From Apostichopus japonicus (taxonomy: Eukaryota; Echinodermata; Holothuroidea; Aspidochirotida; Stichopodidae), in NCBI RefSeq assembly GCF_037975245.1, contig NC_092564.1:5258484-5322483 (forward strand): 64,000 nucleotides of DNA. The letters run 5' to 3'. The position numbers were made by a program, and so were the translations under genes. Positions 47,801-54,600 of this stretch are shown here, in pieces (the first letter of the stretch is position 1; each line of letters starts with the position of its first letter). The notes under the pieces are model-generated. The model was given only the letters and a program-made list of their open reading frames with translations. It did no database searches and was not told the DNA's origin.

Positions 47801-50800
47801 TTTCAGATCAATGGAACTTGATGATCTCACGTACATACTTTGCTTATTGCCACAAAAACATCCTCAAGAAATAAATCTACCTAGTAAAACATGCTACCTC
47901 AATTGGTTTTCATCTAATGATGCATAGAATTTTCAGCAAATTGTTTTGACACAGGAATATCCCTTTATGTGAGAACATGTCTCAAACAGCCAGAGATGTT
48001 GTCTGAGTTGGAAGATGGAGTCCTGTAGGCAAGACCACCAAACAAGTGGATATTTATAATCTCACTCGATGATTATTCACAATACTTACTTTCAGAATAT
48101 GCATAGATGTATCTTTAATAAGCTCTTTGAATTTTTGTGCTAGCCATTCAGTAGTTGAATGACACATTATGTAACAGAAGCTGTACATACCACTTGTTAC
48201 AACATGTTATTATGGTTAATGCTATTTTCGAGACAGAGAGAAAAATGCCATGACAAACTACTTGTTACTGCAAAAAAGCCTGCATAGGCAAATATATAAA
48301 TGTGATAGGGCCTGAAATTTTGATCCTGATCACAGGCTCTCATATTATTGAGACTACAGAATGAAATTTGCATTACCAGCCATCACTCATAGAAGACAGC
48401 AAAGAATAATATACACATGGCAGTCAGTGATGTATTGAGAAACTCTCAGTTCTTATCTACACCCCCTCATTCCTGCATTCCACCCCCATCGTTCCCCCAT
48501 TCCACCCTCTTCCTTCTTCCATACCCACCAAGACCCATGATGTCTTTGTTTTCCAGAAACTCAAATCCAGAGACAAAAACTCATCTTTAGTCTTCATCAA
48601 GCTGTAAGTTCAAAGACTCCACAGACTGTCTTAATTCCATCGGCTGAAATCAAAATACTTACCGACATTTTCCATCCCCGCCGCACCGGAAGCAGTGCTC
48701 ATAATGAGAACCGCCATCGCGATGCACCATGCGCCTTCCGTTTCCATGGCAGCTGGAACAACGAACCTAAGAACATGACAAAAACCTTTTCCTTGAATTG
48801 CCATTTTGTTGTTACAATCATAATTTTTTTTATCCGTAGCTATTTTCTCATGACATGGTATTGTTTCTAAACTAGTTTATACAATCAATTTGGCATGTAA
48901 CACTTGCACAAAAGCACTTTTAATTCTCTGGTATAACTATGTTATGAAACTGATTGGGGTCTATGTTTAGGACATTGATGTTCGAAATATTTTGCTCTCT
49001 GTTATAACCTCAATCTGATCCCCGATTTATCCTGACAGACAGACAGACAGAAAGCCCGCAAAATATGTCAAACTTGTTTTCTGAACTAGTATATACCAAT
49101 CTAAAAAACTGATTAAGCTTCTCTGATAAATTTTTAGACATTTGTAACATATATATACAACAAGAAAACCTGAAATATCAACTGAACCTAAATAGAAGAG
49201 TTGACCTCATCAAAGCGACATCAAAATGTGAAGAAGGCAAAGACTAGCTAAATGTAGATGAAATCAGGCAGTCAACGTTTCAACTGTCCAATCGTTAAAA
49301 AGTCAAGTGTATAGTGGCTTCCGATATGAACTTCTTTCATGTCGAGTAGAAGCATGCTACTCTCGCAGGTAATGCACTATAACCTACTTAAACTGTAGCA
49401 TCTCCTGAATATTAACTTTATTTGAAGCTCTGCAATTTTACATTGAAGTACAAGCAAGCAATAGGAAAGGATCACCCCCATCACTTAACCATTGCAACCA
49501 CTGCCTGGAGTAAAAAGCTTTAGTTCAATGATCGGAAATATTTCCTCACTTGAAGAACAGAGACCTCAGATGACGAGCTTTACTGAAATATTAAGTTGAG
49601 CAAGAACAGAGGCAAGGCCACAGAGTTGATGAGACCATACCACAATCAGATACCCCATTTATCCAAATTAGACAGAAGGAATGTTGAATGAATGTAGGGA
49701 AATTGTTGCTAGTCTTGTAGAAAATAGTCTACCAATTTTAATAAATCTTGCCTGCTACATTTGTAGACATGTTCTTTACATCCATACAATAAGAAAACCT
49801 GAGAGACAGATAGCACTCGTTGTTGAATATAGCGTCAGTAAAATGTGAGAAAGGGCAAAGACAAAAAATTAGGTGGAATCATGCAATCAAAGTTCAAACG
49901 TCCAACGTTAAAGTCAAGTGTAGAAGCTCCCGATATGAACTTTCGTTAAGTTGTCAAATCTTACGTCGAGTAGAGTCATGCTACCGTCAATACACAATGT
50001 GTTTAACTTTAGAATCTCCAGCTAACTTTATAACCTTTATTTTAAGCTCAGCAACCTACATCAAGTACAACGACCATGCTATATGAAAGTGCCGCATCAT
50101 TATTCAACCATTGACAAACTCTTATCTGATAGTTATAGTGGCTGCCTCTTTTTCATTAGTCAAAACACCTGTTTTTTTTCCCTCTCACTTGAAAGTTGAT
50201 AGAACCTGAAACTATATATATATATATTGTTAGTTTGCTGTATTAAGTTTGTGACAGACATTGTGGAAACTTCAAGAAGTTTATTTCTCAAAGCTAACAT
50301 CATCTGCAGCTTGCATACAAGAATCAAGAGGAACCTTTATAGTCATTAGAGGGCTAGTTGTTAGACACATGAATTTAAACTGCTAGATTTAAATACAGTA
50401 GTCCCAAGTATGAACTATGATTCAGTACCATCGTAGCACCAAACTCTAACACTTAGTTTGATTCTGCTATCCTTATTATGATCTATTATTCAGCACCATC
50501 TTAACACCATTAAACATGCTCAAGTTGAATTGTTGTTGTTCCCAAGTGTGATCGACAGTATAATATAGCACCATCATAACACACTGTCATTTACCAGCAC
50601 CTGCTCCCAAGTATGAACTATGATTCAGCACCATCGTAGCACAATACACTAGAATCTAGTTTGATGCTGCTGTCCTAATTATGATATATTATTCTGCACC
50701 ATTGTAACACCATAAAACATGCTCAAGTTAATTTTTTGTTCTTCCCAAGTGTGAACGACAGTATCATACAGCACCATCATAGCACACAGTCATTTATTGG

Positions 50801-51580
50801 CACCTGCTTCCAAGTATGAACTATGATTCAGCACCATCGTAGCACAAAACACTAGCATCTAGTTTGATTCTGCTATCCTTATTATGATCTATTATTCAGC
50901 ACCATCTTAACACCATAAAATTTGCTCAAGTTGAATTGTTGTTGTTCCCAAGTGTGAACGACAGTATTATATTGCACCATCATAACACACCATAATTTAC
51001 CGGCACCTGCTCCCAAGTATGAACTATAGCTTGCCATCGTTGATATCATAGCACATTACAATACTATATCATAGGGTAGTTTAACGTACTGTAGTGAAAT
51101 CACAAAGTGGACAACTTTTACCTGTACCTAAACTGAAGTTACGTTAAACATACAGAATAATTAAATAAATAGGCCACATCATTAGCACACACTTAAAAGT
51201 ATATTTCAGCATATGAAACTACCCAATTTACCCTTCAAAATATTGCTAGTTGCATAAAACCAGGTATCACTTTGAGATCACATCAGTAGTTAATTGCTAT
51301 TAACAAATCTTCAGACACTAAGCTTTATAGCTACTGTACCTTGTACAGAAAAATGTTACATTCAAATTGGCTTCAAAAGCCTGTAAATAATATATTAGCA
51401 ACTTAAAAATAAATACAGAAAATCTGAAAATGTGGACCAAACATACCCGTCCCCTTCCATGACAACGATGGCATCTGTTGTATCCCCGACCATAGCAACC
51501 ATGACACTCCTGACAGACAGCACAATAAGAAAAAACATTAAGTAATAATTGTGCGTTTAATAAATTTATCTATATATTTA

Positions 51581-51628
<48 letters not shown>

Positions 51629-54600
51629 AAATCAATAAAGAATAACACACCAGAAAAATTCCACTTCACGACTGGTTTCGTCCTTTTGGGACTCATCAGG
51701 CGAAGGTAGGAATCGAACCCTGGATCTTGTGTCACGAACCGAAGTCCATACCACTCCACCACAGTGATTCTACTGGTGAGTTAATGCATATAAATTGGCT
51801 TTGTATAACTGTCATTGAGGGCGTATTATCCAAGTGTTATGATTGTATGATAAACATATATATATAGATAGATATACATGTAACATAAATGCTAACACCA
51901 ATTTGGTGTCAACAGTTTGCATGAAATTACAGAAGATTTACCCTTGGAGTATCTGAATGCTTAGATTGAGAGAGACAAAGTTCCATGTGCAGTATAATAC
52001 AATCCATTATCTGAATCACTAAAGTCTGGAGCAGGATAAAGGTGTCCAGAAGAAATTCAGTTCTTACCAGTTCTGAACCATTAGATTTTGTGTGAAGCAA
52101 CTTAATTAATCTAATTTGTATCGTACTTCACTAGACAAGTTTATAAGTTATGACAAGACATCAACATACTGGCTCAGAGAAGAATTTTGGCAATTACTTG
52201 AACTCTTTACCTTCACTTTACTGCTATGTGGAATTTCCAATCTCTTTGTGTGCGTGTCAAACAGCCCATTTGGTTCGCAGTGGATGTCCCACACTCCTGG
52301 AGGAGGGCCACGATCGGCTCCATCTATCGGGCCGCCGTAGTAAGGTTCATGCTTCCAGCAAGTGGTTCTCATCTCAGTGAAAGTCTCAAGCTTGTACTAA
52401 TAAGAGAGATCATAACTGAGGTAAATATAGCTGGGGCTACTGGAATGCTCTGATAGTACTTCTTTAATGATACAGTATTTGTAAACACCACTGATACTGT
52501 TCAATTCAATGATGCCCGGGGGGGGGGGGGGGAGTGAATCCTTTAGAAATATGCCATACTTGCAAAACAGAGCTGAGGTGCAAAATACACAAATTGCTAT
52601 TCCTAGTTTGGCTTCTAAATGCTTCTAAATTAATTTACAAAGAGGAGGGAGGAACCCTCTCAACTAAAGTTGTAATTTGGGGATTACGACCCGATATAAT
52701 AGTTCAGGTGTACATCCTTGACACTGATCCTATCGAATTTACAACATAAGCTTAGACTGCGTGTTGGGCAGGTTTTTGTTGAAAGTTAATAGAAAAACAT
52801 TCTTTATTGAAATGACACAGAATTTCACGTTGAAATTTGGAGCAGCCAAGGAATTTTTGCTTACAAAATAAACTTGAAGAAAATACACAACAGTATCTCA
52901 TCAATGTACCTGAATTGTAGTAAAAAGACTATACTTACATAATTTGCTTTTATTCAATGTTACCAATGTTATTTGGTGTTAGGGGTGGCAATTTTACCAA
53001 TCATTCTGGGTATACTACTCAAATAATGGAAATGATTTAACTTAACTATCAGACACCTTTTAGATTTTGGAACCAAGCTAAGGTTCTGTAATTACATGAG
53101 TAATTAACAAATTTGACCTAATCATCAAAAACTTTTTGTCAACAAGAAAATTGACATTGGTATTACTGACATGGAAGAAAGCAACTCGGACAAATTAAAA
53201 AGATTTTACTCTTTTGTATCGTAACTTGTAACTTGATATCTTAACTTACAAGTTAACTCGATTAAACAAGCTCCCTACATTATAATGAATGTGGTGGATA
53301 CATTATGACCTTGAAAAACTTGATTAGAATCAACATGAAAAACTTACATGTAAGGCTCCACTGGGATCAATCTTTTTGAAGCTCATGTCTTTGGCAGCTC
53401 CAGTTCCATAACAGCACTTCCTGTTAGCAAACTCTAGAATAGCATCTCGAACCTTGGCTTCTTCCATAGAGCTTACACTGATGTCATGAAAAAGAGGATG
53501 AAAATATGGGCATCAAATATTTATGAACAATTTACTGATTGACCACTTTTGACATTTTGAAAAATATAAAAGATATATATATTTTTTTATACCAAGTCTT
53601 AGAGCTCATTCATAACTTGCACACAGACTTGTAGTGGATTCCAAACTATTGTGTCATTAGCTTATTCCTATTTCTGTATTGCGCCCTCACTTTGTCATAG
53701 TTCTTGCTGTGTACAGTACCCACTTTGTATGGCCTTGTCATCTTTCTTTCAAGGATACTGGACTAAGGGAATTCAGAAACCACTTCTCTTCATGGCTTTG
53801 AACTGGTGAGGCAGCTTTACCCATCTGCATTATAATGTTACAGAATCCAATTGTAAGCAATCAGAGTGCCATTTAACTTATAATGTGGTGAATTTGACTG
53901 GTATAAATGTTGTGAATTATAGTTAAATGACTAGCTACTGACTAACACATAAAAGGCACAAACCAACATTATAAAGAGTAAATCATTACATAGCAAAGCC
54001 AAAATGACTTTCAATAATCAATGTGATCAAATTTATAGTACACACAAAGTTATAGAGAATCTGTGACAGTAAAGACTTAAATTATTTCAAACTACTGTCG
54101 TAGATGCAGAAATATCCAGAAGATTTTGATTAAAATGGATCATTAAATTTAACCTAACTTACCCAACAAATTTCTCCTCTGGTTTCTGATCCCCATCTGA
54201 ATAATAAGGGTTACTTGGAGGGGGTAAGGGACCACCTATGAAATGAGAAAAACAATGAACAGTGACAAAAGTAGCAAGAACAAGACAGTATTCATAATTT
54301 TGTAAAATTACAAAGCACAATGCATGTATACAAACTTACAAGTTACAGTTCCTAAGATTTATTGCTTATTAAGGTTGTTGTCATGTTTTGAGGTCTGCTA
54401 ACCTCAAATGACCCAGGAACCCCACCAACAACAACAACAATAGGTTTCTTGCACTCATCACAGTGAATCTGCATCTTGAGATAAAAGATATACTAGAGGT
54501 ATTGTTCTCCAAACATCACGGTCACACACAGCCACACAAGGACACACACGTACGTGTGCACAAACTGCCTATTACTTTTCTCCCAACAGCAAGGAACTAA

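Follow-up and report, generated by a model that had tools for sequence, protein, structure and literature searches.

The hammerhead ribozyme motif in an intron of the SSUH2 gene of Apostichopus japonicus belongs to a somewhat decayed copy of an interspersed mobile element, and not to a purpose-built switch of SSUH2. It lies in a stretch of 64,000 nt, which was analyzed as a whole and is called the window here. The feature is likely a non-autonomous retroelement that resembles retrozymes and Sm-alpha, inserted with its 5' end truncated and by now mildly decayed; its mover is probably Penelope-like. What is new is a hammerhead element family of known kind in an echinoderm. Judged by title, no paper on an echinoderm hammerhead was found in our literature search, which covered few subscription papers, and we do not claim that none exists.

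The ribozyme motif and its element family

The window was searched on both strands with 4227 Rfam families. The sole match above gathering was Hammerhead_1 (RF00163) at 51705-51664 on the minus strand, with 38.3 bits against a gathering score of 34 and an E value of 4e-6. An earlier reading, made from the sequence only, had proposed a search with this model and claimed that all invariant hammerhead positions are present. The minus-strand core, which reads CUGAUGA...GAAA...UC, confirms the claim. Folding gives CUUCGC/GUGAAG as stem I, GAUUCC/GGAAUU as a further stem on the outer side of an internal loop, and GUCC/GGAC with the loop CAAAA as stem II. Stems I and II are as the sequence-only reading described them, but the minimal third stem that it named is too short to close. 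In the Rfam alignment stem III has 2 pairs in cis enclosing 2 bases, and hairpin closure is impossible. When 46-nt and 69-nt pieces of the window were folded, the minimum-energy structure paired CUG of the core with CAG, and the active fold was absent. The folding programs used in this work ignore tertiary contacts.

Joining 9 exons gave an SSUH2 gene model of 354 aa, which along its entire length matches an SSUH2 homolog of A. japonicus at 99%. The ribozyme is in sense orientation to the gene. Its earlier placement in SSUH2 intron 5, with a predicted cut after 51670 and 160 nt before the next exon, proved correct (Table 1). A tandem array of a 203-bp unit (3.1 copies, TRF) is also present in this gene, at 50402-51027 of the window, in the intron following exon 6.

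Table 1. The element copy and neighboring features of SSUH2, in window coordinates.
Feature	Position	Strand	Basis	Remarks
SSUH2 coding exon 5	52211..52396	-	gene model + protein match	
SSUH2 intron 5	51510..52210	-	gene model	701 nt; holds the element copy
Element copy	51620..51847	-	BLAST	228 nt; monomer 276-341 then 1-163; 5'-truncated and permuted relative to the dimer unit
Pol III A-box-like sequence	51751..51761	-	pattern match	TGGTGGAGTGG; differs at one base from TGGTCGAGTGG of the family
Pol III B-box-like sequence	51709..51719	-	pattern match, folding	GGTTCGATTCC; 3' part within outer stem I
Hammerhead ribozyme, type I	51664..51705	-	RF00163, 38.3 bits (gathering 34)	
Stem III segment	51671..51676	-	sequence comparison	ACCAGT; family form is the palindrome ACCGGT; differing base 51673, in CpG context
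Predicted cleavage site	51669..51670	-	position of CGAAACCAGTC	after C17 at 51670
(AT)n tract	51567..51625	.	TRF	3' end of the insertion
SSUH2 coding exon 6	51447..51509	-	gene model + protein match	first base 51509; 160 nt 3' of the cleavage site

In the A. japonicus genome (671.6 Mb), 226 places match the 26-nt core of the ribozyme exactly, compared with 0 for the reversed control. On this control and the RF00163 score, a chance motif was rejected. Two samples of loci were analyzed. For the first, the best 40 of 1110 first-look genome candidates were scored, the 40 being those most like the window copy, and 39 distinct elements were analyzed. For the second, the 226 core matches were put in order of coordinate and the leading 30 loci were taken. 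Six of these were already in the first sample as elements or arrays, and three pairs seem to be near-duplicates.

One locus (L055) holds a tandem dimer with a period of 341 nt, and three more arrays have periods of 337-341. Aligned with the 341-nt L055 unit by BLAST, the window copy is 92.4% and 95.1% identical in its two pieces. The monomer has a GC content of 41.6%, and its longest frame is 85 aa even in the dimer, so the element is non-coding. A candidate protein was sought in its translated frame and none was found. The family has the make-up of a retrozyme, namely short non-coding tandem monomers with a type I hammerhead. It does not have that of a Penelope-like element, for which an ORF with reverse transcriptase plus GIY-YIG domains would be expected.

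Just 5' of the ribozyme are two sequences that resemble the A and B boxes of Pol III promoters. The distance from A to B is tRNA-like, 43 nt in the window copy and 44 nt in the L055 unit, and no other A+B pair was matched by the pattern on either strand of the window. In 20000 shuffled monomers, the two boxes appeared 26 times with a loose pattern and 0 times with a strict one. The first sample has an exact A box in 33/39 elements and an exact B box in 37/39. In the second sample an A box was found in 18/30 loci, a B box in 20/30 and both in 13/30, and 5' truncation accounts for part of the losses. The Rfam tRNA model (RF00005) gave no match at E<=1 in L055 1100-1900, and ARAGORN found no tRNA gene in 17 loci. 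We therefore term the upstream part Pol III-box-like, not tRNA-derived. A pattern of tRNA plus hammerhead was also followed up in 6 viral and 44 prokaryotic stretches, where the matches, read by eye, looked like tRNA 3' ends or chance. The strict ribozyme pattern was found 0 times in viral contigs.

A second, tRNA-like repeat was observed near some copies. Its 371-nt unit is tandem in L105 (290-660, plus strand) and also ends in (AT)n. Among the 70 element loci retrieved, BLAST placed pieces of it in 13 (L105 and L052, L056, L062, L071, L080, L090, L095, L098, L106, L114, L119 and L120), and six RF00005 matches of 30-52 bits fall in 5/20 loci. The unit contains an 18-nt hairpin sequence that recurs without change on the 3' side of a Penelope-like frame in L123, and it also carries CGAAACCGGT on the opposite strand. 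The window had no BLAST match to this repeat at E<=1e-5.

Copy ends and the mobilizing enzyme

In the first sample, 20/39 elements have their 3' end at monomer positions 161-166, 17/39 at 191-202 and 2/39 elsewhere. Compared with the predicted cleavage site, which is after monomer position 113, the 37 ends in the two clusters are 48-53 and 78-89 nt downstream, and the clusters are 28-39 nt apart. In the second sample, 12/30 ends lie at 155-167, 7/30 at 186-203 and 11/30 elsewhere. An AT tract was present at the element end in 27 of the 29 elements read by eye. The 5' ends are scattered, and 12/39 elements of the first sample and 8/30 of the second are longer than one monomer (341 nt). Abutting the 5' end of 14/39 elements is an inverted partial copy, in places forming a palindrome (L054, L057-L060, L066, L069-L071, L077 and L087-L090).

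A comparable end pattern has been described for a Penelope-like element. The Anolis Poseidon element is cut 26 nt into its ORF, with reverse transcription starting 111-118 nt into the ORF, and it has an optional tail of 30-40 bp and AT-rich targets, according to the portion of the report used here (PMC11167929). If the copy ends mark such starts, two internal start points of reverse transcription at a similar distance from the cut would be a shared trait (PMC11167929). We regard the resemblance of the two end clusters to the Penelope-like "tail" as suggestive.

The main alternative for the end pattern is that TA-rich RNA could pair with (AT)n by microhomology. With both end clusters rich in TA, discrete ends might also arise from annealing to (AT)n and need no Penelope-like element. 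In a rival reading the mover would be a LINE, acting by ordinary SINE-style target priming with microhomology to (AT)n, and this we consider unlikely. The A and B boxes are as in SINEs, both clusters adjoin (AT)n, and the 11 unclustered ends of the second sample would fit such a mover. However, two internal clusters with this spacing, lying this far from the ribozyme cut, look like the tail of Penelope-like elements, and SINEs do not usually form over-unit-length or permuted copies.

With a Penelope-like mover, the element would be transcribed either by Pol III, as the A and B boxes suggest, or by read-through from a host gene. At a T5 run shortly after the ribozyme (monomer positions 125-129), Pol III transcription could end short of a full monomer. 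The palindromic ACCGGU of stem III would bring tandem or paired RNAs together as a double hammerhead, and their cleavage would give monomers, which are perhaps circularised. A Penelope-like reverse transcriptase would start inside this RNA at one of two points, 48-53 or 78-89 nt beyond the cleavage site. Priming at an (AT)n target would give permuted, variably 5'-truncated and sometimes over-unit-length copies.

Penelope-like elements are present in the same genome. When the best 150 of 626 genome candidates were scored, at least 37 GIY-YIG matches were above the cut-off. One of them is within an 835-aa open frame, in which reverse transcriptase and C-terminal Penelope motifs were read by eye. 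The 341-nt monomer and eight GIY-YIG loci (L122-L129) share no sequence at E<=0.1. A disrupted Penelope-like relic was seen in L062 and L081, and in L081 an element copy lies about 450 nt 3' of the frame remnants. A 188-aa Penelope-like fragment from L062 had no Pfam match at E<=0.1. The relic was considered as the parent of the copy beside it in L062; this was unsupported, and the copy looks like a separate insertion. Open Penelope-like frames and a Penelope-like 3' end pattern in one genome make the link testable.

Decay of the copies and the SSUH2 intron

The identity of the copies was compared in both samples. First-sample copies, which were chosen for similarity, average 98% to their own majority sequence. 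Second-sample loci have a mean identity of 91.6% to the L055 unit, with a range of 76.9-99.0. In the first-sample copies, decay at CpG sites is 5.4% compared with 1.6% elsewhere. These CpG changes and the lower identity of the second sample would agree with a dead repeat, a fossil family with no present role whose ribozyme is intact just because some copies are young. We consider this quite unlikely, since 98% identity (in similarity-chosen copies) and 226 perfect cores indicate that at least some amplification was recent.

The ribozyme core is intact in 33/39 first-sample elements, the ACCGGT palindrome in 36/39 and both in 31/39; ACCGGT is kept in 27/30 second-sample loci. Twenty second-sample loci, all with the exact core, were scored with RF00163, and 11 were above the gathering score and 9 below. 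Across 65 segments, the changes seen in stem I are largely those of decay. Only one pair is compensatory, and covariation therefore lends no support. In minimum-energy folds the hammerhead is absent from the lone family ribozyme and from the 341-nt unit, linear or circular. ACCGGU is self-complementary, and co-folding of two family RNAs predicts a double hammerhead in which stem III has six pairs. With the ACCAGU of the window copy, a CpG-type change, no double hammerhead is predicted, either as a homodimer or with a family RNA. From these models, the family ribozyme appears to be built for dimer action through a 6-nt palindromic stem III, which the window copy has lost by one base.

This loss bears on the host gene. 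Because the dimer palindrome is lost in the window copy and the predicted double hammerhead is absent, efficient cis-cleavage of SSUH2 pre-mRNA by this single mutated copy is unlikely. To SSUH2 itself the copy is most likely close to neutral, a passenger in the intron. The sequence-only reading had compared the motif with conserved intronic hammerheads of amniotes; such a conserved switch in SSUH2 was rejected after the genome search, as the motif belongs to a multicopy mobile element with 226 exact cores. A ribozyme that serves the host, tuning SSUH2 expression by cis self-cleavage as considered for RECK and C10orf118, is highly improbable: the core is intact and sense to SSUH2, and the L055 family unit scores 40 bits with Rfam HH9 (cut-off 52), which we take to be the RECK hammerhead, but the element is multicopy, its stem III in the window copy is unable to close and the dimer palindrome is broken.

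Relation to known elements

Elements of this kind are already known, with precedents in Sm-alpha, where a hammerhead is joined to boxes, and in metazoan retrozymes, with tandem type I hammerheads and RNA circles. In the passages cited, Sm-alpha of Schistosoma has a hammerhead joined to boxes A and B (PMC2576457, PMC2770079), and intronic hammerheads with Pol III boxes A and B occur in the SmPoMuc genes of Schistosoma mansoni (PMC2576457). A 335-bp unit of S. mansoni is similar to Sm-alpha (PMC2770079, PMC2576457, PMC8490949). By these descriptions, Sm-alpha/Sj-alpha and the sea cucumber element are alike in having a hammerhead and A/B boxes in one short repeat. The latter differs in belonging to another phylum and in its palindromic six-base stem III. 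Many Sm-alpha-like copies are called tRNA-Gln in these accounts, whereas the tRNA-like part of the sea cucumber element is not recognised as tRNA.

According to the cited part of PMC7229834, the retrozymes of metazoans consist of type I hammerhead units in tandem and occur as circular RNA. Compared with the non-LTR retrozymes of metazoans as outlined in PMC7229834 and PMC7761336, the sea cucumber family likewise has a type I hammerhead and non-coding tandem monomers of a few hundred nt. Its GC content of 41.6% agrees with their values below 50%. In contrast, its 341-nt monomer exceeds the range of ~150-300 bp stated in these papers, it is without the stable helix III of most invertebrate retrozymes, and it has a box-like pair whereas Pol III boxes are unmentioned in the cited parts of both papers (PMC7229834, PMC7761336).

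Penelope-like elements with minimal hammerheads, as described in the portion of PMC11167929 used here, share a weak stem III, AT-rich targets and tandem copies with the sea cucumber family. Unlike them, it has no ORF and no detectable sequence in common with the fetched A. japonicus GIY-YIG loci. The RECK (HH9) and C10orf118 hammerheads are also intronic, in sense orientation and similar in ribozyme sequence (HH9 40 bits, below the cut-off of 52), but in the cited account each is one site conserved across many amniotes, whereas the sea cucumber element is multicopy and mobile (PMC3088659).

An intact-looking intronic hammerhead is thus not necessarily a gene switch. The enzyme that moves animal retrozymes was left open in the cited part of PMC7229834, where Penelope-like elements were named a strong candidate. 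We tentatively propose, a little short of even confidence, that Penelope-like elements have the hammerhead retrozymes of animals as their SINEs, with the present family combining, in 341 nt, Pol III boxes and a dimer-type hammerhead with a Penelope-like region where reverse transcription starts in two steps. If true, this would give a direct, testable tie between retrozymes and their mobilising enzyme.
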